A DNA stretch of 64,000 bases from Nitrospira sp. (GTDB lineage Bacteria > Nitrospirota > Nitrospiria > Nitrospirales > Nitrospiraceae): positions 2,207,501 through 2,271,500 of the forward strand of contig CP060501.1 of assembly GCA_024760545.1 (NCBI GenBank), read 5' to 3'. Position 1 is the stretch's first letter. Each line of letters opens with the position of its first letter. Positions 8,626 to 22,581 of this stretch are shown here, in pieces. A program made the position numbers and the translations under genes. The notes beneath the pieces are model-generated. The model saw only the letters and a list, made by a program, of their open reading frames with translations. It did not search any database and was not told where the DNA came from.

Positions 8626-11600
8626 CTAGCTCAGATAGAGATACTGCAGCAGTGCCACGAGCCCATACAGTGATGATTCGACCACCGGCTGCTGATAGAG
8701 CGGCACAAAGGCGCCTTGTTCGTTGTCCTCCACTTCACCGATGATATGCTGGATCTGCCTGACCCGCACGTCGTGATCCTTGCCTATTCCCAAGGTCTGG
8801 ACGATTTGCCGGTTGAGTCCGGCCAGCATCGCCGCCTTCGCCTGACTGGCGGATTGATACAGGAGAAACGCGCCGAGCAGGGCGATCAGCACATTGACCG
8901 ACCAAGAGATCAAGAGCAGGAGTGGATAATTCCAGATGTCGAAATACTCGTTCCGGGCGGCGATCATGATCAAGAGCGCGATAAAGGGATACCGGATCAG
9001 TCGGTTGACCACCTGCGTCCGCTGGGCGATGAGATCCACGACTGCCAGGTACTTCAACTTTTCGAACTCGGCCTTCTGCGCTTCACCCAATCCATAATCG
9101 CGCAGGTATTCTTCTTGAACCTGCTCTGACCAGCCTCCCGTCGAACCAATCACCCATCCGATCCATCGCCGGCAGAGCATCACGGCGTCGAAGACCGCCA
9201 GATTCAGCAACACGACGATGCCGACGCTGGCGAGCGTCATGAACGAATCCACTCTACAGCTCAGGAGCCCGCGACAGGGATGGATATATTCTTCATCGAG
9301 CACGAAATACCCGATGGCCCACATCGCCCCCAAATACAGGAGGAACAACAGCATCGTGCGGACCATCCATTGGCCCAGCTGACTTGCTTCGCGATACCGA
9401 ACCCAGGCCTGGTCCACTTTCATCGAGGCCATGGTGGCGATGGGATGGTAGGCTCGCTGGAGATTCGTCCAGAATGTTCTGGACGAAAACCGAGGACGTT
9501 CCGATAGGTCTTCGAATCGGAATTTCTCCCCGATCCGTTCTCCGTTTTTCTTGAGATCGCGGACCCCCTTCACAAACAGCAGCATCGCCAGCATCACCAC
9601 GATCAGCCGGAGTAATTCGCTCGGCCAGATGCTGACCCCGGCGGTCCACGAAAAGGGCTCTCCTTCATCATGGTTGGCGAGCAACGCGGTTGCGCCACCG
9701 GCCAAGACGAACACCATGAATAACGTCACGAGTACCACTGCTGCGATGCTCAGTGTGCGCGGATACCTCGTGATCCCCGACCAAAGCCGCTGATTGCTCC
9801 AGGCCACGACAATGACAAGGGCAAAGCCCACCGCTGTCGCCGCGGCCACCGCAGTATTATTGAACCCGACCCCTTGGCTCAGCGCACCGTACCCCTTCGT
9901 GTAGGCCAGATCGGTCCGCAAGGGATGCACGGTGCGCACCTCTGCCTTCTTGACGATGCTCAGGTCGACCGCGCCGTTTCTCCCCACCTCGAACAACCGT
10001 AGATGCGCTCCGGCATCGTACAGGCGATCCTCCGGCGTCAGTAAGGCGTGGTACGCCGTCGTACAGGGACCGCTTGCAGCATCAGCCTGGTTGTCCCGAC
10101 GGCACACCACATGACCGACCGCTTGCAAGGCGGCGAAGTAGGCGGAGGACTGATAGCTGCTTCGGAACGGCGGGACATCGCGCTGGAGACCGCCGTCCAA
10201 CTGCAACCCGAAAGGAGAGGCGATGACCATGTTGCGTGTCCATTTATATTCACTCGGGTGGAGATGCCGGGCATCGAGACCGATCGTAAAGAAAATGGCG
10301 TGAGGAAATGCCGGACGGAGCGCTTTGATGATGAGCAACGAGTCATAGGGATCTGTCCCGAAGATCCCGATGGCTCGTGCACCCTCTCCTTCTTCGTGAA
10401 TACGGTTGACCAAGGCCCGCACGTAGTCCACTTGACTCGTGCCTTCAGGGCGATCCTGCTGGTTATCTTTCGAGCTGTCGGCACGAGCGGTTTTCCCTTT
10501 GTCTTCACCCGGCACCTCGCCGTCCAGTCCGCTCAGGTAGCTATATCGTTGCACATTGAGACGCAGCGACTCGTACTCAGCCTGCCGCTGGATCTGCAGG
10601 TCGACCGCATGGGGAATATCGGAACATCCCTGTTTGATCGCCACTGGAACCTCGATCAGCTCCAGGTCGCGCTCGGAAAAGGTCGCGATCTTTTTGCAGG
10701 CCGCGGCCCGAAATTCGATCGGGAGCGTCCTCCCATAGAACGAGTCCCATTCACCGATCAAAATTACGGCGTCCCACCCAAGACGCACCTGCCGCCGCTC
10801 CAGCTCCTCGACCAATGATTCGAAGAGCTGATCGTCAGACCCGATATCGTAGGCCAACCTGATATTCGCGTTCGACAAACGGTGGTAGAATTCCTGCTCG
10901 CAGGATTCGTATGTCGCGCAGGCCGTACCTTTCCCAATCCCTGTTTTGAGCCCATAGGCCAACAACCCTTTCATCGCGCTGCTCCAGGGCGAGTACAGCT
11001 CGATCCATCCATCGGCGTTCGGCCAGACACCGATACCCTCGTGCGGCTCGGCATACGACTCCCCCGCCTCAGCCAGCAACGCTCTAAATGCAGAAGAGCT
11101 GCGAGGCCCCAGGATCTTGAAGGTCACAGCCGGTTGCAGCCGTGGATCCAACTGAACGAGTTTGCGTTTATCGTCCGTCAGGAGACATTCGCTTTTCTTC
11201 TCTGCTTCCCGGCACACGAGGGCTTGGGAGAATGACGTCAAGCTCGCGAAAAACCCCCGGCTGAGCGCTTCGTCCGGAAACCAGACGACCAGCACACTCC
11301 GCGATCTCGGAGTTTCTTCGTCACAGACCCTCGTCTTCCTGAGTCGATACCATTCGTACGGGAGCGCTGGGATAGGGCTTTGCGGGTCCCACTCGACAAA
11401 AGATAGTTGACCTTCCTGTTCCGGTACATAGCAGGACACCCCTAACGCGGTGCCGACTGCGTAGCGGTCTCGGATACGCGACTCGGTGCTTTCGACGTAC
11501 GGCCCTCCGCTGGTCGTCACGAGGAGGACGGTGAGGGACTGGCCCTCCTTGAGAACGCGTTCGGCAATCGTTTGTCGAAGTGCTCGGAGTCGTTGTGTAA

Positions 11601-11853
11601 GAGGCGGAGAAGGGGTTGTGGTCGCGCGGTTCGTTTTGATCTCGCGCATGCCGCGTTGAACGGCCGCGACCGGATCTTCCCACAATCGCGCACGAATGGT
11701 TTGCTCCTCGATCGTCGCCTTCATGTCCAGTCCGGTGCCGACCGGCCGAGAGCTTCGCAATGGTTCCTTCACGAGCAAGACGCCGGCGAGCGCCAGCACG
11801 AGCGTGAGGGCTCCTGCTATCGCAATTTTGGAGTCGCTTGGCTTCTTCGCCAT
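8626..11853 (-). CDS. Large multi-domain membrane protein of unknown function (1075 aa)
   Basis: I do not recognise this family. The protein starts with one membrane helix (about residues 10-28). A roughly 640-residue extracytoplasmic part follows, and then at least six hydrophobic segments between about 670 and 1035, with a charged loop between them. Part of the soluble region (about 480-580, containing AIGIFGTDPYDSLLI) resembles the alternating beta-alpha pattern of periplasmic-binding-protein-like folds, such as branched-chain amino-acid receptors. That is a visual impression, not a confirmed match. No kinase, nuclease or GGDEF motif is visible. The start is ATG 11853 with AAGGAC upstream. 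Codon use looks like the neighbours, so it is unlikely to be a recent import. Confidence 0.75.
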   Translation of the reverse strand: MAKKPSDSKIAIAGALTLVLALAGVLLVKEPLRSSRPVGTGLDMKATIEEQTIRARLWEDPVAAVQRGMREIKTNRATTTPSPPLTQRLRALRQTIAERVLKEGQSLTVLLVTTSGGPYVESTESRIRDRYAVGTALGVSCYVPEQEGQLSFVEWDPQSPIPALPYEWYRLRKTRVCDEETPRSRSVLVVWFPDEALSRGFFASLTSFSQALVCREAEKKSECLLTDDKRKLVQLDPRLQPAVTFKILGPRSSSAFRALLAEAGESYAEPHEGIGVWPNADGWIELYSPWSSAMKGLLAYGLKTGIGKGTACATYESCEQEFYHRLSNANIRLAYDIGSDDQLFESLVEELERRQVRLGWDAVILIGEWDSFYGRTLPIEFRAAACKKIATFSERDLELIEVPVAIKQGCSDIPHAVDLQIQRQAEYESLRLNVQRYSYLSGLDGEVPGEDKGKTARADSSKDNQQDRPEGTSQVDYVRALVNRIHEEGEGARAIGIFGTDPYDSLLIIKALRPAFPHAIFFTIGLDARHLHPSEYKWTRNMVIASPFGLQLDGGLQRDVPPFRSSYQSSAYFAALQAVGHVVCRRDNQADAASGPCTTAYHALLTPEDRLYDAGAHLRLFEVGRNGAVDLSIVKKAEVRTVHPLRTDLAYTKGYGALSQGVGFNNTAVAAATAVGFALVIVVAWSNQRLWSGITRYPRTLSIAAVVLVTLFMVFVLAGGATALLANHDEGEPFSWTAGVSIWPSELLRLIVVMLAMLLFVKGVRDLKKNGERIGEKFRFEDLSERPRFSSRTFWTNLQRAYHPIATMASMKVDQAWVRYREASQLGQWMVRTMLLFLLYLGAMWAIGYFVLDEEYIHPCRGLLSCRVDSFMTLASVGIVVLLNLAVFDAVMLCRRWIGWVIGSTGGWSEQVQEEYLRDYGLGEAQKAEFEKLKYLAVVDLIAQRTQVVNRLIRYPFIALLIMIAARNEYFDIWNYPLLLLISWSVNVLIALLGAFLLYQSASQAKAAMLAGLNRQIVQTLGIGKDHDVRVRQIQHIIGEVEDNEQGAFVPLYQQPVVESSLYGLVALLQYLYLS

Positions 11854-13479: not shown

Positions 13480-13824
13480 TTATCGGCTACCGTTCTGGAT
13501 ATCACGATCCATCGTAAAGACGAAGACTCGCTCTCCGAGCTGTACGTCGATATCGGTGAACAGACCCAGGATTTTGGTCCCGGTGATCTCACTGACTTGT
13601 TCGCACAGCCTGTCACGGCCCTGGGCAATCAGATTTTGCCGCAGCCGTTTCACCATCTCGATCCCTTCCGCAGTTTTCGCGAGTTGGCGTTCGGCCGGCG
13701 TCAGGACGCCTTTCAGGCGTACGACAACGAGATCGCGGGCGACAAGCGCACGGACTTCATCAGGGCCTCGGCCCAGAAACTCCTGTTCGAATTTGATGAC
13801 GGCATTGCGTATCGCGCTTTCCAT
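13480..13824 (-). CDS. mpsC: DUF2294 / MpsC-like protein
   Basis: The 114-residue soluble protein carries the DUF2294 core: GRGPDEVRALVARDLVVV, then KGVLTPAERQLAKT and a C-terminal VFTMD strand. Pfam groups this domain with MpsC of the staphylococcal membrane-potential-generating system MpsABC. MpsA and MpsB are the DabB and DabA homologues. Its position, divergent from the dab operon, supports that assignment. The chosen ATG at 13824 has AAGGAAG just upstream; a 15-residue longer frame exists but lacks support. Its biochemical role is not established. Confidence 0.75.
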   Translation of the reverse strand: MESAIRNAVIKFEQEFLGRGPDEVRALVARDLVVVRLKGVLTPAERQLAKTAEGIEMVKRLRQNLIAQGRDRLCEQVSEITGTKILGLFTDIDVQLGERVFVFTMDRDIQNGSR

Positions 13825-13965
13825 ACGTTCTTCCTTTACGATTATAGAATTGCGTGAGGAAGCGAACAAGTGCCGTCTAGGTCTTTTGTCTCCACCACGG
13901 GACCACTCCTGGGTCTTTCGGTTCCGGACACCTATGGATGGAAGTCCTGGTCCACCATTTCGGGC

Positions 13966-13992
13966 TTGACGCTATCCTTTGCGCCATATTAT
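13966..13992 (+). promoter_or_regulatory. Candidate sigma-70 promoter for dabB1 operon
   Basis: TTGACG at 13966-13971 and TATTAT at 13987-13992 are separated by 15 bases (or 17 to an overlapping TTATTC). Transcription from here would start near 14000 and give a leader of about 200 bases before the dabB1 start. This is inferred by eye only. Confidence 0.4.
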
Positions 13993-14022
13993 TCATGGAG
14001 TCGTATTTACTAAAGCGCAATG

Positions 14023-14118
14023 TTGCCAATCCCACGATTGAGAGTGGGCTGGCAAGAAAGCCTGATACTTTCATTACGGGCCGTAGGGTGACCGGCAATT
14101 CACTGGGAGAGGCCGGTC
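14023..14118 (+). promoter_or_regulatory. Structured dabB1 leader: two consecutive hairpins
   Basis: Hairpin 1 spans 14023-14055: TTGCCA plus CCCAC pair with GTGGG plus TGGCAA around an 8-base loop. Hairpin 2 spans 14090-14118: GACCGGC pairs perfectly with GCCGGTC around a 15-base loop rich in A and G. They precede a third, terminator-like hairpin and lie in the region between divergent genes, so they can only belong to the dabB1 leader or to a free small RNA. I could not match them to a riboswitch class I know. Confidence 0.5.
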
Positions 14119-14126
14119 GCAGTACA

Positions 14127-14182
14127 AGCCAACCGAACATGGCTCGATCACGCATCGAGCGGGCGGTTGGCTTTTGTGTTTT
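14127..14182 (+). terminator. Intrinsic terminator hairpin inside the dabB1 leader (possible attenuator)
   Basis: AGCCAACCG (14127-14135) pairs with CGGTTGGCT (14164-14172), and an inner GCTCGAT/ATCGAGC stem extends it. It is followed directly by TTTTGTGTTTT. It ends about 20-30 bases before the dabB1 start codon. Since no plus-strand gene lies upstream, it would stop transcripts that begin in the leader itself, which is the layout of an attenuator. Confidence 0.65.
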
Positions 14183-14200
14183 CAGAATCCGTTTGGGGTC

Positions 14201-15904
14201 ATGATGTCCGCTGTATTGCTTGTGCCGCTGCTTCCATTGATCGCCGCGCTTATCGTGGGCGTCGGGAGTGAAGCCACGCGTCACGCTCGTGCAAGAATCG
14301 CTGCCTGGCCGTTCGGCGGGGCCTTCTGCGGGGCCATCGCCACGCTGTACGTGGTGGCCACCGAAGGCCCGATTGCGCTTCGACTGTACGATCCGGTCGC
14401 CTCCACGGTGCTGGCTGTTCCGATCGGCATCTACGTCGACCGGTTGAGCGCAGTCATGATGGTATTGATCTCCGGCATCGGCACGATCATCTATACCTAC
14501 TCCGTCGGGTACATGTACCAAGATTTGCACGAGCGCCGGTACCTCGCCTTGATCGGGGTCACCGTGTTTGTCCTCCTCTGCATGGTGTCGAGCGCGAATC
14601 TATTGATGCTGTTCATGCTATGGCAGTTGCTGAGTTACCTCCTGTATCTGCTGGTCCACAATCATAGCCATCAAGAAACGTTGAAGAGCGCGTTTCGCAC
14701 GTTCACGCTCTTGCGGGTCGGTGATGTCGCCTTCTTGGGCGGAACGGTGCTGGCTTACTCGCTGTACGGTACGCTGGAATTTCCTGATCTGTTTGCCGTC
14801 GCCGTGCAATCGACGGCGACCGTGTCTCTGTTCCCCGGTGTCGAATTCAACGGCGCGACCGCGGTCACCTTCCTGCTCCTTGTCGGCGGGATGAGTAAGT
14901 CAGCCCAGTTTCCACTCCACGGCTGGCTTCCCCGGTATCTCTATGCCCCGACGTCGGTCACTGCGCTCCTGCACGCGGGCATCATCAATGCCGCGGGCTT
15001 TCTCATCAACCGCCTGGCTCCGCTCTTCGGGATGAGCTCGACCACTCTGCACATCGCCCTCGTGATCGGGACACTGACGGCCATCCTCGGCGCGACGATG
15101 ATGTTGGTGCAAAACGACATTAAGAACATGCTCGGCTTTTCGACGATCGGCCAGATGGGCTACATGATCATGGAATGCGGTCTCGGGGCCTTTTCGCTCG
15201 CAGTCTTTCACTTGATCGCCCACGGTCTGTTCAAAGCGACGGTGTTCTTGTACAGCGGGAATGTCATTCACAAGGCGAGACAGGAACCGATCCTCCCCCA
15301 TCCAAAACGCGAGACCGAAGAAGAAAGTTACTCGCCCCTGACCTGGATGACAGGATTTCTCACGACCCTGCTGATTCCCTTACTCATCTTGCTGGCGACT
15401 CACGGCGTACTACAGATCCCGCTGTTGGAATCTCAGGGGACCGTCATTTTTCTCTTTTTCATTTGGATCACGTCTTCGCAAGCGATCCTGACGCTGACGC
15501 GGTTGCGTGCCGTTGCCTCCTGGAAAGTCTCTGCGGCGATGTTAGTGACTTTGTTGTTCATCGTGTTCGTCTATCTGTTTGCCGTCGAATCGTTCACGGC
15601 ATTCCTCTACCCGAACCCGGAAGAAGTCGCCTCATACTTTAAGGCCGCCGATCTCCCGGACTGGCTCTTTGATCTCCTCCTCGTGGTATCGACGCTGGTC
15701 ACGATTGGAGGCTGGATCTATCTTTACATGCGAGCCCACGGACGGACCGTGTGGATACCATCATGGATTAGTGGCGTCCGGATCCGCCTCTATGTGCTGT
15801 TTCTCAATCGACTCTATGTCGACGCGGTTTTACATCGAGTGGGGCACACCCTGACATCTGCCATTCAACGCTTGGATAAGCGCGCCCAGGAACGCTCGCT
15901 TTGA
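14201..15904 (+). CDS. dabB: DabB/MpsA-type NuoL-like proton-conducting subunit, first copy
   Basis: This 567-residue protein of about 14 membrane helices belongs to the antiporter-like NuoL/MrpA superfamily. It carries the TM7 Lys in MSKSAQFPLH, the TM8 His in HAGIINAAGF and the TM12 Lys in HGLFKATVFL. The TM5 Glu of NuoL is replaced by Gln (W141-Q142). Downstream dabA identifies it as the membrane subunit of the DAB inorganic-carbon pump, which is thought to let H+ or Na+ drive CO2 hydration by DabA. The start is ATG 14201 or 14204 behind TTGGGG; a longer frame would begin inside the terminator tail. Confidence 0.85.
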   Translation: MMSAVLLVPLLPLIAALIVGVGSEATRHARARIAAWPFGGAFCGAIATLYVVATEGPIALRLYDPVASTVLAVPIGIYVDRLSAVMMVLISGIGTIIYTYSVGYMYQDLHERRYLALIGVTVFVLLCMVSSANLLMLFMLWQLLSYLLYLLVHNHSHQETLKSAFRTFTLLRVGDVAFLGGTVLAYSLYGTLEFPDLFAVAVQSTATVSLFPGVEFNGATAVTFLLLVGGMSKSAQFPLHGWLPRYLYAPTSVTALLHAGIINAAGFLINRLAPLFGMSSTTLHIALVIGTLTAILGATMMLVQNDIKNMLGFSTIGQMGYMIMECGLGAFSLAVFHLIAHGLFKATVFLYSGNVIHKARQEPILPHPKRETEEESYSPLTWMTGFLTTLLIPLLILLATHGVLQIPLLESQGTVIFLFFIWITSSQAILTLTRLRAVASWKVSAAMLVTLLFIVFVYLFAVESFTAFLYPNPEEVASYFKAADLPDWLFDLLLVVSTLVTIGGWIYLYMRAHGRTVWIPSWISGVRIRLYVLFLNRLYVDAVLHRVGHTLTSAIQRLDKRAQERSL

Positions 15905-16349: not shown

Positions 16350-18056
16350 GTGCTCCTGTCGCTGACACTCATCGTTCCATTTCTCCTCCTAGCCGCCGCC
16401 GGCATCGTGATGATCGGCGGTAAGACGCCGCGTTTCACCCGTGCAAAGGCGGCCGCCTATCCCGTCGGCCTGGCGTTCCTAGGCTCCATAGGCATCCTGA
16501 CGATGATCTCATCGCAGGGTCCCGTCACCGTTCGGTTCTATGATCCGGCCTCCGTCACGGCCTTCATTATTCCCATCGGTTTCTATGTCGACCGGCTGAG
16601 CGCGGTCATGATGACGTTGATCACGGGCGTGAGCACCATCATTTACTGCTACTCGACGAGCTACATGTACCAGGATGGTCATGCGCGCCGATATCTCGCC
16701 TTGATTTGCCTGACCGACTTCGTCTTGATCTGCATGGTCTCGAGCGGGAACCTCATGATGCTGTTTCTCTTTTGGCAAATCCTCAGCTACCTGCTCTACC
16801 TGCTCGCGCACAACCATATCCACCCTGCGACGTTGGCGGGCGCATTCAAGACGTTTACGCTGCTGCGTGTTGCCGATACGGCCTTTCTTGCCGGTATTGC
16901 TCTCGCGTATCAACTCTACGGCACCCTCGAATTCCAAGAGTTGTTTGCCAGAGCAGCTGGCACTCCCATCACCCTTTCGATTCTGCCTGGGATGGATGTC
17001 AGCGCCACAACGGCTGTGACGTTCCTCCTTTTTATCGGGGCGATGGGCAAATCCGCTCAGTTTCCTCTGCATCTGTGGCTGCCGGGATCGCTGTTCGCTC
17101 CCACGCCGGTCCACGCATTGCTGCACGCGGGTATTATCAACGCCGGAGGCTTTCTCATTAACCGCCTCGCGCCCCTCTTCGGAATGAGCTCAACCACCCT
17201 GCACGTCGCCTTCGTCATCGGGACCCTGACAGCCGCCCTCGGCGCGACGATGATGCTGGCCCAAAACGACATCAAGAAGACGTTGGGCTTCTCCACGATC
17301 GGCCAAATGGGCTATATGATTATGGAATGCGGCCTGGGGGCCTTCTCGCTGGCCGTGTTCCATCTGATCGCCCATGGTCTCTTCAAGGCCACGGTCTTCC
17401 TCAATTGTGGAAATGTCATCCATAAGGCGCGCCAGGAGCCGCATTTTCCCCATACAGACCACGCAGATGACGAGGCGGGATTCTCTCGCTTGACCTGGTC
17501 GACGGGGTTTGTGACGACACTCTTTATTCCGCTGCTTATCTTATTGGTCACGCATGGAGTCCTGCGCATTCCGTTGCTGGAATCACAGGGAACCGTTATT
17601 ATCCTGTTTTTCATCTGGATCACCTCGTCGCAAGCGATCCTGACGCTCACGCGACTTCGTGCCGTGGCTTCATGGAAGGTGTCGGTCATCATGTTGCTGA
17701 CGCTCCTCTTCATCGTGTTCGTCTATTTGTTTGCCGTCGAGTCGTTCACCGCATTTCTCTACCCCAACCCAGATGAAGTCGCGTCATATTTCAAGACCGC
17801 CGGTCTCCCGGACTGGCTCTTCGACCTCATGGTCGTGATGGCTGCGTTCATGACGGTCTTGGGCTGGACCTACCTCTACATGCGTGCCCACGGTCGGACG
17901 GTCTGGATGCCGGCTTGGATCGAAGGACTAAGGATCCGGCTCTATACGGTGTTCCTGAACCGGATCTATGCCGATGAGCTCTATCAGTTTGTCGGCTCGA
18001 TGACCGCGCAACTGATACATCGGATCGACAAGCTGGAACGCGGGTGGTCTCGATGA
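16350..18056 (+). CDS. dabB: DabB/MpsA-type NuoL-like proton-conducting subunit, second copy
   Basis: This 568-residue protein is a close paralogue of the first copy. Long identical stretches occur, such as INRLAPLFGMSSTTLH and LGFSTIGQMGYMIMECGLG, and the C-terminal third is very similar. As in copy one, the TM5 position is W142-Q143 rather than W-E, while the TM7, TM8 and TM12 charged residues are kept. The start is GTG 16350 with AGGGGGA upstream; the nearby ATG at 16345 is out of frame. Its stop overlaps the next gene by ATGA. The tandem pair most likely arose by gene duplication. Confidence 0.85.
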   Translation: MLLSLTLIVPFLLLAAAGIVMIGGKTPRFTRAKAAAYPVGLAFLGSIGILTMISSQGPVTVRFYDPASVTAFIIPIGFYVDRLSAVMMTLITGVSTIIYCYSTSYMYQDGHARRYLALICLTDFVLICMVSSGNLMMLFLFWQILSYLLYLLAHNHIHPATLAGAFKTFTLLRVADTAFLAGIALAYQLYGTLEFQELFARAAGTPITLSILPGMDVSATTAVTFLLFIGAMGKSAQFPLHLWLPGSLFAPTPVHALLHAGIINAGGFLINRLAPLFGMSSTTLHVAFVIGTLTAALGATMMLAQNDIKKTLGFSTIGQMGYMIMECGLGAFSLAVFHLIAHGLFKATVFLNCGNVIHKARQEPHFPHTDHADDEAGFSRLTWSTGFVTTLFIPLLILLVTHGVLRIPLLESQGTVIILFFIWITSSQAILTLTRLRAVASWKVSVIMLLTLLFIVFVYLFAVESFTAFLYPNPDEVASYFKTAGLPDWLFDLMVVMAAFMTVLGWTYLYMRAHGRTVWMPAWIEGLRIRLYTVFLNRIYADELYQFVGSMTAQLIHRIDKLERGWSR

Positions 18057-19360
18057 CGGACGTGTTCATCCCATGGCTGTGCGCCGGGATTCCATTCGCG
18101 GGTGCACTCGTCTGTCTGGCGTGTTGGTCCGATCCCTACCGCGTGAAGATGTGTGCGATCATCAGTTCTGTCATCAGCCTTGCGTCGATCACCGGAGTCG
18201 CCAATCTGCTTCCGACTCCGCCCGATGGTCTCTTGCCGCTCTATTTGCTGCCGATCGCAGCTATAGTGTCCGCATTAGGCCAGCCGGTTCACGAACACCA
18301 TCGGCTCTCTTGGACCATGACCTTGGTCTTTCTCGGTTTAGGAATGGCCGTGCTCACCGGTGGGAATTCGGTCGGCCCGCTCTGCCTGATCTCGCTCATG
18401 CTGATCATCATGTTCCTTCTGTACCGTCATCACACCACGCTCTGGCCCATCTCCTGGTGGGGCATCGGCTCCTTCGGTGTCGGGGTAGCCGGCACGGCAT
18501 TCTCTCTCGCGGCTGGACCGCCCATCTCATCGGTGGCATCCTTGGCGACTTGTGCCGTTCTGTTGCCGCTCATGCCTTTTCATGACGGGTACCTGACGGC
18601 GCTGACCAGGCTCCCGGGTAGCTTGCCGCCGTTCATTGTGTTACTGCTGCCCGTGCTCGGCCTTCATGGACTGGAGGCTGCCATGCCGACGATGCCGAAT
18701 GAATTCGTTGCGGTCGTCAGCCTCCTGGCCCTGGCCAGCGCGCTGTACGGCGCGATCAAGGCGTTGGCCCAGTCGCGGGTGCGTCTCTTGGTGGGCTACG
18801 GCAGCGTCTCGTTCTTTTCGATCCTCTGGTGGTTTGTGGCCGGAGCCCACACCGCGACGCCACGCGCGGCCGTGCTGGCCGGAGCAGTCGGTCTCGCCAC
18901 CGGCGGGCTCTTGGTGGCCTGGCAAGTGATCCGCACGAGATACGGCGACGATGTGGATCCGCAGTCCATCAGCGGCCTGGCCGCGGCGATGCCGAAATAT
19001 GCGGTTCTGTTTTCTCTGTTGGGCCTGGCTGCGATGGGAATCCCGCCCTTCGGCGTGTTCGCTGGATTCATGGGATTACTGTTGACGGCCCCTCCCTCGT
19101 CAACGATCGGCCTCTTCATCGCGCTCACGGCCTGGCTTGCCGCCTCGTGGTACATCATGCAAATGGTGCAACAGTTGCTCTTTGGTACTCGCCGGCCGGA
19201 TTTACGCTATGCCGATCTCCGGCAACCCGAATTTACTTCACTGTTGATCGTGGTGCTGGTCTTGCTGGCGCTTGGCCTGGCCCCGACCAACTGGTATGCC
19301 TCGAATCAGATTCCGAATAAGACCGCCGCCATGGAGCAGTCTCTCGTATGGAACCGCTAG
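18053..19360 (+). CDS. NuoM-like membrane subunit of the DAB operon
   Basis: The 435-residue product has about 12-13 hydrophobic helices and resembles the antiporter-like (NuoM/NuoN-type) subunits, for instance ALYGAIKALAQSRVRLLVG followed by GYGSVSFFS. The TM7-type Lys-Ser motif kept in both DabB copies is not recognisable here (PLMPFHDGYLTAL instead), so it may not conduct ions itself. The start ATG 18053 overlaps the dabB2 stop (ATGA), and its own end overlaps dabA by 13 bases, which indicates a co-translated complex. An extra subunit of this kind is not part of the minimal two-gene DAB system. Confidence 0.75.
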   Translation: MTDVFIPWLCAGIPFAGALVCLACWSDPYRVKMCAIISSVISLASITGVANLLPTPPDGLLPLYLLPIAAIVSALGQPVHEHHRLSWTMTLVFLGLGMAVLTGGNSVGPLCLISLMLIIMFLLYRHHTTLWPISWWGIGSFGVGVAGTAFSLAAGPPISSVASLATCAVLLPLMPFHDGYLTALTRLPGSLPPFIVLLLPVLGLHGLEAAMPTMPNEFVAVVSLLALASALYGAIKALAQSRVRLLVGYGSVSFFSILWWFVAGAHTATPRAAVLAGAVGLATGGLLVAWQVIRTRYGDDVDPQSISGLAAAMPKYAVLFSLLGLAAMGIPPFGVFAGFMGLLLTAPPSSTIGLFIALTAWLAASWYIMQMVQQLLFGTRRPDLRYADLRQPEFTSLLIVVLVLLALGLAPTNWYASNQIPNKTAAMEQSLVWNR

Positions 19361-22300
19361 AGCACGTGACTGACATTGAGTCCAGGCGGATGGAATTGCG
19401 CGGGGTCGTCCGTCTTGCTGGGGAAGTCATTGCGCAGTACTGGCCGATGAGGACCTTCGTCCACCACAATCCCTTGCACAGTATCGAATATCTGCCGTTC
19501 GAAGAAGCCGTCAAGCGCGGAAAGCAGTTCATGGGCGGTAACGGTTATCTTCCCAGCCATCTGTATCGTGAGTACCTCAAGGCCGGCCGAATCCGGTCCG
19601 CTCATCTCGATGACGCGCTCAAACCGCGCGTCATCGACAAGCATGTGCCCATCGGATCGCACGCCGTCACGCACGGCTCGGTCTTGCGCGCTTGTTTGGC
19701 TGAGGGACTGTGTGCTCCGGCCATGGAGCCGCTTGACGATCAACTTGAAGATCCCGACAGGCCGCTGATCGACGCACTGGCCCATAAGCTGGAGTGCGTG
19801 CTTCTTCCTTTTTCACTGGATGATCGAATCCGAAAAGTCGTGGATGAGAGCCACGCCGCGCTTTGCAAATGGCTCACCCTTTCGCACTGGTGCGATGACA
19901 CACTTGGAACACAGATCGTCCAGCAGATCAACGAGCAGATGATCAAGTGGTGCGGCGCCTTCCTGGACGAGGGCCATGCCACATGGGTCATGCCGGGACG
20001 TGAAAAGGGTCTGTATGAAGCCTGGAAGGCCATGGCCTCCCATGAATGGTCTCCCTGCGGGATCAAAGACAGTTGCAGGAAGATCGCGCAGTTGCCGGAC
20101 TATCCGGAAGACGCGCTCCTCGAGAGCCTGGGCGCATTGGGGATTCCTGATGAACTTCTACAAGATTATTTATCATTGCAATTGACGGCGCTGCCGGGCT
20201 GGGCCGGCTTCATCAAATGGCGAGGCGAGGAACGTGATTATCCGTGGCAGCAGGCCAATCCGGTGGGCCTCGTCAAATTTCTGGCAATTCGACTCTGGTA
20301 TGCGCGGGAACTGGTGCAGGCGGCCTGTCAGGACTATCTTGGCATTCAGGGCCGATTCGACGCCATCTCTGCCTACATGCGCGACTATCCCGAAGAATAT
20401 TACCTTCGACGGCAGCGGGTGGCCGGCCGGTTGCCCGCCCTCTATGCCGAGGAAGTTGACCGGCTCTCACATCGGAAAGGGCAAAGCTGGAACAATATCC
20501 TCACACGGTACCGCGCCGAAGTCATTCCCCGGCTGCAAGCGGCCTCTCGTCGCGGGGCCGCACGCCGGCTTCTCGCCTTGGCCCATTCATTGACCATTGA
20601 TGCCACGGCACTCCTTGAAAGCACCCCAGCGGATCTCAAGGAAGTCGTCGACTGGTTGGAGGCATTCCCCGAATCGGACCATGGACCCGTATGGCTCAAG
20701 GCCCTGGAGGCCGGCTACCAGGAACAGCTGTTGGGACACTTGCGCGCGCGCACCGAGCATGCCGCTCCCTCTGAGATGGCGCGCCCGTACTCACAGTCGG
20801 TCTACTGCATCGACGTGCGTTCCGAACCGTTCCGCCGCCATCTCGAATCGGTCGGCCCACACGAAACGTATGGCTTCGCGGGTTTCTTTGCCGCCTTTAT
20901 CCGCTATCGAGCCTGGGGAAAGGAGCATGATACGGAACAGTTCCCCGTGATCATGCGGGCGAAGAACGAGGTGCGGGAAATTCCGCGTAGCTATCTCGAT
21001 CATAAGGTATCGCAGCATGCGGCACGGGCCAAGTGGGTACATGCGGGTCACACGCTCTTGCACGACCTGAAGGAGAATGTCGTGACACCCTATGTCATGG
21101 TGGAATCGCTGGGGTGGTTTTACGGCCTGCCGATTTTCGGCAAAACGTTGGTCCCGGCGCTCTATCAGCGCTGGACCGCCTGGTTACGACGCCTGTTCGT
21201 CCCCTCATTGGCCACCACACTGACGATAGACAAATTGGCGCCCGGTGAAACCGCCGAGATGCTCGAAGCGGAACAACACGCTGTGATCAGGGAGGCCTTG
21301 CACGAACACTTCGGACTGCGCAGTTCCCGTATCATGCCCACGCTCGTGGAAGGTTTACGGCAGCGTGCGCTGACAGTGGAAGGAGACCCGGAACCTCCGA
21401 TCGGCGCCGAAGAAATCGAGCGGGCCGGTCTCACACCGGAGACGATCAACGCGTTTGTCGAAATCCTACGTCGGCAATACGATCTGACGACGAGATCCGC
21501 GTCACGACACAAGGAACGGCTCACCCGGACCGGGTTCACCTTGGAAGAACAGGTTCTGACTGTCGACACGGCACTCCGTATGATGGGGCTGACCAAGAAT
21601 TTCGCCCGGCTCGTCCTCTTCTGCGCCCACGGGAGCACGTCGGACAACAATCCCTACGAATCCGCGCTCGATTGCGGGGCCTGCGGCGGCAATGAGGGCA
21701 AACCCAATGCCCGTGTCCTCGCGATGATGGCGAACAATCCCAGGGTCCGCGAGCGAATCGCCAAACTGGGAATCAACATCCCCTCCGACACGCATTTTCT
21801 CGCCGGCCAGATGGATACGACGACCGATGCCGTACAACTATTCGACCTTGAAGACGCCCCGCCGACCCATCGCGCGGATATAGCTCGACTCCAAGAAGAC
21901 CTCAAAGATGCCTCCGTGCTCACTAGTCAAGAACGCTGTGCGCGCTTTCCCGATGTCCAACACGTGCTCAAGGAGACGGAGGCCGAAGCGCATGTCCGCA
22001 GGCGGAGCATGGACTGGAGTCAGGTCAGGCCGGAGTGGGGTCTGTCAAACAATACGTCGTTCCTGATCGGACGAAGGGAACTGACGAAAGGACTGGACCT
22101 GGGCGGTCGCGTCTTCCTGCACTCGTACGATTATCGAGAAGATCCGAGCAACCGATTGCTCGAAGTGTTGCTCACAGCCCCGCAGGTCGTGGCGCAGTGG
22201 ATCAACATGGAACACTATTTTTCGGCGGTGGACAACGAGGTCTACGGAAGCGGCAGTAAGATCTACCACAACGTGGTGGGACGGTTGGGCATCATGTCGG

Positions 22301-22581
22301 GGCCATGGAGCGACCTTCGGCTTGGATTGGCCAGGCAAACCGTCATGAGCGGCGAAGGCGCCTATCACGAGCCGATGCGGCTGTTGACGATCATTGAGGC
22401 GCCGCGTGAACGGATCGACAAGCTTATCGCGCGGCACGAAGTGCTCCGGCACTTCTATCATAATGAGTGGGTGCACCTGATCGCTCTCGATCCTGAAAAG
22501 AAGATATGGTATCGGTATCGCCCCACCGGCGAGTGGAACGCGATCATGGAGCAGGTGTACAGTGGGACCTCTCATTCGTGA
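19348..22581 (+). CDS. dabA: DabA/MpsB inorganic-carbon uptake protein (DUF2309), long form
   Basis: This 1077-residue soluble or peripheral protein of the DUF2309/UPF0753 family has a beta-carbonic-anhydrase-like zinc site. By comparison with characterised DabA, the ligands are C487 (in VYCIDVR, with D489), H761 (in CAHGS) and C776 (in LDCGACGG). The 15-residue H-to-C spacing matches, but C487 to H761 is about 100 residues longer than in Halothiobacillus DabA2. DabA is thought to hydrate CO2 vectorially with energy from DabB. The ATG at 19348 lies inside the end of the NuoM-like gene. Confidence 0.93.
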   Translation: MEPLEHVTDIESRRMELRGVVRLAGEVIAQYWPMRTFVHHNPLHSIEYLPFEEAVKRGKQFMGGNGYLPSHLYREYLKAGRIRSAHLDDALKPRVIDKHVPIGSHAVTHGSVLRACLAEGLCAPAMEPLDDQLEDPDRPLIDALAHKLECVLLPFSLDDRIRKVVDESHAALCKWLTLSHWCDDTLGTQIVQQINEQMIKWCGAFLDEGHATWVMPGREKGLYEAWKAMASHEWSPCGIKDSCRKIAQLPDYPEDALLESLGALGIPDELLQDYLSLQLTALPGWAGFIKWRGEERDYPWQQANPVGLVKFLAIRLWYARELVQAACQDYLGIQGRFDAISAYMRDYPEEYYLRRQRVAGRLPALYAEEVDRLSHRKGQSWNNILTRYRAEVIPRLQAASRRGAARRLLALAHSLTIDATALLESTPADLKEVVDWLEAFPESDHGPVWLKALEAGYQEQLLGHLRARTEHAAPSEMARPYSQSVYCIDVRSEPFRRHLESVGPHETYGFAGFFAAFIRYRAWGKEHDTEQFPVIMRAKNEVREIPRSYLDHKVSQHAARAKWVHAGHTLLHDLKENVVTPYVMVESLGWFYGLPIFGKTLVPALYQRWTAWLRRLFVPSLATTLTIDKLAPGETAEMLEAEQHAVIREALHEHFGLRSSRIMPTLVEGLRQRALTVEGDPEPPIGAEEIERAGLTPETINAFVEILRRQYDLTTRSASRHKERLTRTGFTLEEQVLTVDTALRMMGLTKNFARLVLFCAHGSTSDNNPYESALDCGACGGNEGKPNARVLAMMANNPRVRERIAKLGINIPSDTHFLAGQMDTTTDAVQLFDLEDAPPTHRADIARLQEDLKDASVLTSQERCARFPDVQHVLKETEAEAHVRRRSMDWSQVRPEWGLSNNTSFLIGRRELTKGLDLGGRVFLHSYDYREDPSNRLLEVLLTAPQVVAQWINMEHYFSAVDNEVYGSGSKIYHNVVGRLGIMSGPWSDLRLGLARQTVMSGEGAYHEPMRLLTIIEAPRERIDKLIARHEVLRHFYHNEWVHLIALDPEKKIWYRYRPTGEWNAIMEQVYSGTSHS

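Follow-up and report, generated by a model that had tools for sequence, protein, structure and literature searches.

A conserved attenuating leader RNA upstream of inorganic-carbon uptake genes in Nitrospirales, a candidate riboswitch

Nitrospirales are major nitrite oxidisers. In the genome of Nitrospira sp. (GCA_024760545.1, contig CP060501.1), we analysed a stretch of 64,000 nt, positions 2,207,501-2,271,500 of the forward strand, which we call the window and in whose numbering all positions are given. There, a terminator stands between a promoter-like site and a dab operon, raising the question of what the leader RNA in between does and to what it responds. The DAB complex performs an energy-coupled hydration of CO2 that is linked, in the best studied case, to protons and not to sodium (DAB2 is H+-driven; PMC13144422), and MpsAB, its relative in staphylococci, is a supplier of inorganic carbon (PMC6689103). 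No account of how Nitrospirales set the uptake of CO2 and bicarbonate was found in the literature searched. The genes of the locus are the following.

13480-13869, minus strand: mpsC (Pfam PF10057), divergent neighbour and possible partner of the leader RNA
14204-15904, plus strand: dabB-type gene (NuoL/Mrp-like; Pfam PF00361, PF00662), the first gene under the putative control of the leader
16350-18056, plus strand: second dabB-type gene (Pfam PF00361, PF00662)
18044-19360, plus strand: ND2-like membrane subunit (Pfam PF00361)
19348-22581, plus strand: dabA (Pfam PF10070, E 1e-268)

The first dabB-type gene starts with ATGATG, its start codon being at 14201 or 14204, and GGGG is found at 14195-14198. 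A gene for a PII-type protein (PF00543, 22666-22995) directly follows dabA and may regulate the pump (compare cyanobacterial SbtB); the match of this protein to the NCBIfam PII-like transporter-associated family is below the cut-off. The minus strand also encodes, at 8626-11853, a protein of 1075 residues that has hydrophobic stretches, which probably span the membrane, and no Pfam match.

The elements of the leader itself are listed below.

13966-13971, plus strand: -35-like TTGACG, kept in homologous leaders; function inferred
13987-13992, plus strand: -10-like TATTAT after a 15-nt spacer, kept in homologous leaders; function inferred
13999-14182, plus strand: leader RNA, from fold and homology; start approximate, inferred from the -10, end at the end of the terminator T-run
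14023-14055, plus strand: P0, a 5' hairpin seen in Nitrospiraceae members, from covariation
14079-14081, plus strand: GGC, 5' arm of P1ext (the antiterminator extension), pairing with 14128-14130, from the placement of GGY and the fold of truncated RNA
14083-14088, plus strand: core 5' strand GUAGGG, i.e. P1 (GUA), loop GG and the first base of P2; near-invariant alignment columns
14088-14120, plus strand: P2 hairpin (14088-14096/14112-14120), from covariation; variable in sequence, length and loop
14121-14130, plus strand: core 3' strand AG-UAC-AA-GCC, near invariant; its AGCC is common to P1ext and the terminator
14126-14182, plus strand: intrinsic terminator (stem 14126-14135/14164-14173, inner hairpin 14142-14148/14154-14160), from sequence, fold and covarying pairs

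The leader folds with -81.2 kcal/mol, as compared with -59.5 kcal/mol for shuffled sequences (z -4.8; none of 200 shuffles was as good). Its core (14079-14130) is a hairpin in which a 2x2 internal loop separates P1 (14083-14085/14123-14125) from P2; the terminator directly follows, its 5' arm reusing the AGCC of the core, and its T-run, which is interrupted (TTTTGTGTTTT), extends to 14182. Automated scans listed neither the promoter-like site, since they used spacers of 16-18 nt, nor the terminator, since they permit only short loops. A preliminary description of the locus had placed both here, with a first hairpin at 14023-14055 and a dab operon divergent from mpsC, all of which we found as described. 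The promoter-like motif (TTGACN and TATTA[T/A], 14-18 nt apart) is also present ahead of the core in 24 of the 77 homologues, the first hairpin covaries in 25 homologous Nitrospiraceae leaders, and all 77 homologues have a like terminator. The second hairpin then proposed, 14090-14118, is present, though merely as the upper part of a longer element made up of P1, the 2x2 loop, P2 and P1ext.

By DNA search of 59 genomes, the leader was found, besides the window, directly upstream of dabB in 24 genomes of the same genus; the same RNA precedes dabB in one genome of another family (G049) and a SulP-type transporter in two genomes of a third (G050 and G057). A covariance model, R1, with a seed found by plain DNA similarity and a structure from RNAalifold, matched in 114 of 395 genomes of the phylum, with strong scores confined to one order. 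A second model, R2, was built from a core-only MAFFT alignment of 77 members (A3). It matched in 121 of 156 Nitrospirales genomes, from three families, and a second sample of the phylum likewise gave matches in Nitrospirales alone; in the fourth family of the order that was sampled, no match to the RNA was found. We infer, partly from PMC12342949, that the three families are Nitrospiraceae, UBA8639 (lineage IV, mostly marine) and NS-4, and that they are nitrite-oxidising.

Outside the phylum, with the same model in its own order as positive control, R2 had no match in 299 genomes of Pseudomonadota, 126 of Cyanobacteria and 128 of Desulfobacterota, under stricter filters that could miss weak relatives. 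The sole match, in one of 129 Planctomycetota genomes (L253), was not accepted, lying antisense to a kinase-like gene, which leaves no credible member in the 682 genomes of these four phyla. A pattern scan of all phyla led to no accepted relative outside Nitrospirales among the matches listed. Weak matches without the GUAGGG core (L064, L086 and L099-L102) were taken as terminators or chance and not counted as members. The E-values of the models are rough, and most members of A3 had been found with R1, so that the alignment may lean towards the RNAalifold structure of that model.

The consensus of the core is GGY-N(0-3)-GUA-[G/C/A]G-P2-A[G/A]-UAC-AA-GCC, followed by the terminator. In A3, nine of the 12 core pairs vary on both sides and yet stay paired; 83 such changes were observed versus 26.5 in shuffled alignments, a number reached by none of 500 shuffles, and 93% of the core cells were paired versus 85%. 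Kinship of the sequences inflates the counts of changes, which the shuffle control does not correct. It is corrected by sliding the partner by 1-3 columns, upon which pairing of the core falls to 20-52%. G13, T14 and G17 of the alignment are invariant in the 77 members, and the internal loop varies in concert: it is mostly GG/AG, elsewhere CG/AA or AG/AA, the second G and the first A being invariant. The conserved core is thus small, comprising the 2x2 loop and about 14 conserved nucleotides. The pairs of the terminator also vary on both sides (28 sequences), as do eight of the 13 pairs of P0 in 25 Nitrospiraceae leaders (37 such cells versus 11 in shuffles). Core, P0 and terminator all covary, and the absence of covarying pairs in relatives, which would have refuted the preliminary description, is not what the analysis found. 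P0 had no consensus fold in the mrp and dabA leaders of the other families, for which reason we rejected it as a part of the core and consider it an accessory element at most. A DNA operator or a mobile repeat was rejected, because the arms of P2 vary freely provided that their pairing holds.

How the core might act on the terminator is suggested by the strand that they have in common. In all 77 members, the 5' arm of the terminator (median stem 10 bp, six T in eight) contains the GCC stretch of the core. A GGY able to pair with it lies 0-3 nt from the GUA in 71 of the 77, where shuffling leads one to expect 14.6 (at most 28 in 1000 shuffles); it is missing from this place in the other six. 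In one locus (L066), a change of GCC to ACC is matched by one of GGC to GGU, giving a compensated GGU:ACC pair. When folded in silico, RNA ending before the 3' arm of the terminator forms GGY:GCC with a median probability of 0.95, and full-length RNA forms the terminator with a median probability of 1.0; both alternative folds were also seen with the window sequence. We conclude with high confidence that the GGY:GCC core helix and the terminator, which exclude each other in silico, constitute a transcription attenuator. The preliminary description had already proposed such an element before the dab operon, a proposal now well supported by the covariation and by the terminator arm shared in every member. 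Two features expected of a riboswitch can thus be assessed: a covarying core in the 5' leader of related genes is present, and the mutually exclusive expression platform is present in silico only.

The following sequence of events may be proposed from these folds. RNA polymerase would start near 13999 and, as the RNA emerges, P0 would fold first and then the core hairpin, GGC (14079-14081) pairing with GCC (14128-14130) around P1 and the conserved 2x2 internal loop. Once its 3' arm has been made, the 10-bp terminator is predicted to capture AGCC, and transcription would stop before dabB. If a signal bound to the core and stabilised it, AGCC would stay within the core helix and the terminator would be blocked, so that the dab operon could be transcribed. 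The arrangement is that of an attenuator with termination as its default state. The ON direction of the switch is an inference and could be the reverse, as the predicted fold allows the terminator to form alongside the short P1 when the latter is not extended.

The genes behind the RNA provide the main clue to the signal. Of 107 matches, 67 precede dabB, 14 SulP, 12 dabA, 12 mrpE and two none of these, one of the latter being cut by the end of its contig (L079) and the other a weak 21-bit false match (L086). Twelve more loci, found by R2 and inspected for their neighbourhood afterwards, are located before SulP (4), dabB (3), mrpE (3) and dabA (2). Altogether, 117 of the 119 checked matches are directly upstream of one of these four types of gene and in the same orientation. 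A separate match (L128), upstream of no such transport gene, was rejected as chance. The RNA is found in 120 of 142 genomes with DabA versus one of 14 without (Fisher p 6e-9); that single genome (G736), in which it precedes SulP, is 64% complete.

The genes of UBA8639 typically stand in the order SulP - mpsC - dabA - mrpEFG and so on, and a genome may carry as many as three copies of the RNA, located ahead of SulP, dabA and mrpE. Twelve of the 15 mrpE loci lie behind dabA, from which a single gene separates some of them; in the other three, the contig ends first (L062), dabA is about 10 kb upstream (L067) or it is elsewhere (L068), so that dabA precedes mrpE in 12 of the 14 with a readable upstream side. 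The intervening gene in one UBA8639-type genome (L060:11884-13422) encodes an HtrA/DegP-type protease. Mrp/Mnh clusters of marine lineage IV that follow dabA and bear the dab/SulP-type leader were observed at L060:13704-19328, L063:7940-15471, L071, L072, L074, L097 and L107. In PMC12342949, clusters of this kind are presented as Na+/H+ antiporters that serve to cope with salinity; the common leader suggests that they belong with DabA in carbon uptake.

The SulP family includes the bicarbonate transporter BicA. The substrate of the SulP protein behind the leader is uncertain, since it does not reach the cut-off of the BicA model. Inorganic-carbon uptake is nevertheless the one feature that fits all the target genes, and the link to bicarbonate uptake made in the preliminary description is strengthened by the presence of the same RNA before SulP, dabA and mrpE of the same kind of cluster. 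Second, divergent dab loci without the RNA were also encountered (L248:2030-5251, L249:6147-9362, L250:4910-9815 and L252:5785-10586; 43-49% identity to the dabA or dabB of the window), so that one genome can hold DAB types with and without it. In one genome (G034), a degenerate copy before another dabB (L029:1466-1578) has kept GUACAAGCC and the terminator and lost the 5' half of the core.

On this basis, we rather favour the view that the leader belongs to a new family of attenuators, acting as an ON switch whose core directly senses inorganic-carbon status for the uptake genes of nitrifying Nitrospirales. Most likely, the core senses a small molecule or ion that reports this status, i.e. 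the RNA is a riboswitch; direct sensing and the identity of the signal are inferred, in the absence of ligand data. That the ligand is bicarbonate, CO2 or carbonate itself, setting DAB, SulP and DabA-Mrp in nitrifiers whose CO2 fixation runs through the reverse TCA cycle, is a more doubtful proposition. The support for the riboswitch reading is entirely computed, with no ligand, RNA-seq or binding data behind it.

We considered the possibility that the same attenuator is read not by a small molecule but by an RNA-binding antiterminator protein, MpsC being the nearest candidate. This is the main rival to the riboswitch reading and remains possible, if on the whole unlikely. A core this small would also suit a protein site, and a small internal-loop hairpin with a 3' strand overlapping the terminator resembles the sites of protein-dependent antitermination. 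Many riboswitch classes are widespread, whereas this RNA was found in one order only. Furthermore, mpsC adjoins many copies of the leader, and the two co-occur, 113 genomes having both, eight only the RNA and eight only MpsC (Fisher p 2e-16). Yet MpsC adjoins dab genes anyway, so that co-occurrence is expected, and the eight genomes with the RNA and no MpsC match, which include one of 100% estimated completeness (G275) and two others (G397 and G720, 98%), weaken MpsC as sole partner. Homologues of MpsC also occur in Bacillus subtilis, and in S. aureus MpsAB does not need mpsC to be active (PMC6689103). No PDB fold match to its AlphaFold model (pLDDT 89) reaches E 0.001; the weak top matches are largely to ribosomal large-subunit proteins, which is a lead and not evidence. 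The model consists of two helix-strand-strand halves, and the function of this protein, conserved beside dab, is unknown. As to known antiterminators, BglG/LicT-type proteins are absent: their RNA-binding domain CAT_RBD (PF03123) was found in none of 141 Nitrospirales genomes, four control genomes being positive, and the RAT system was rejected. An ANTAR-target RNA, with its two hairpins and conserved hexaloops (A1 and G4), was also rejected, the apical loop of P2 varying in length and sequence among the 77 members.

Alternatively, the RNA could answer Na+ or alkalinity and switch on Na+/H+-linked transport (DAB/Mps, Mrp and SulP). The mrpE operons among its targets, two of them (L067 and L068) not directly behind dabA, would agree with this, as would the riboswitches known for Na+ and Li+, which act as ON attenuators and precede genes for cation transporters (PMC9337991, PMC9646797). 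However, the RNA matches neither the models of these riboswitches nor any other Rfam family, the majority of its members precede dab genes, and DAB2 is driven by H+, not Na+ (PMC13144422). Na+ also fits less well because most mrp operons with a readable upstream side lie behind dabA (12/14) and because in G328 the RNA is missing in front of the nhaD that adjoins SulP. We therefore regard an ion or pH sensor as improbable.

The promoter-like site, stable fold and terminator would equally befit a free small RNA of about 180 nt, ending at the terminator and acting elsewhere, the alternative raised in the preliminary description. It is disfavoured to the point of being very improbable, as the copies are tied to one class of downstream gene (117/119, same direction), which a trans-acting RNA need not be, and core and terminator have a strand in common in all members. 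Ribosome-mediated attenuation through a leader peptide is scarcely tenable and largely refuted. The leader of the window does have one frame that by chance stays open across the core. Such a frame exists, however, in no more than 41 of the 77 leaders, relatives do not agree in its phase or its sequence, and no short ORF is conserved among the 77.

We also compared the RNA with known families. Neither the window nor 19 diverse members matched any family of Rfam 15, whether the threshold was gathering or permissive; the families covered include 6S, T-box and the riboswitches for Na+ and Li+. This is in line with the earlier failure to match the leader to a known riboswitch. The best permissive matches were to the animal HOTAIR, mir-21 and mir-2058 models (E 1-5), and nothing beyond chance appeared even at E 5-10. 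In the open-licence papers searched, neither a riboswitch for bicarbonate or CO2 nor a Nitrospira RNA of similar kind was found. From these negative results, we conclude that the leader is a new RNA family, an attenuating leader and a riboswitch candidate; it is possibly the first case of an RNA sensor connected with the supply of inorganic carbon.

With this leader, DAB, SulP and Mrp genes have a concrete regulatory element in common. It also connects with carbon uptake the Mrp clusters of marine lineage IV, which have hitherto been seen as an adaptation to salt (PMC12342949). Inorganic carbon, if sensed by the RNA itself, would be a new type of ligand, and the RNA would be a tool for sensing CO2; reading by a protein would instead point to a new antitermination system.

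The evidence is of the same kind as that for the orphan riboswitch candidates of intergenic-region surveys (PMC11109978, PMC8632094), namely a conserved 5' leader, an expression platform and coherent genes. PMC11109978 makes no mention of Nitrospira, sulP or ndhF, and the leader RNA has no Rfam entry. The RAT sites of BglG/LicT antiterminators are short internal-loop hairpins of PTS sugar operons whose 3' strand overlaps the 5' arm of the terminator. The leader has a like overlap of hairpin and terminator, but differs in not serving PTS sugar genes and in belonging to an order without CAT_RBD in the 141 genomes searched. The Na+-I riboswitch (DUF1646 motif) and the Li+ riboswitches (nhaA-I/II) are, as is proposed for the leader, ON-type attenuators before ion transporters, in which the aptamer helix excludes the terminator (PMC9337991, PMC9646797). 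They have another core, with no covariance-model match to the leader RNA, and the latter, unlike them, targets the inorganic-carbon genes of a single order.
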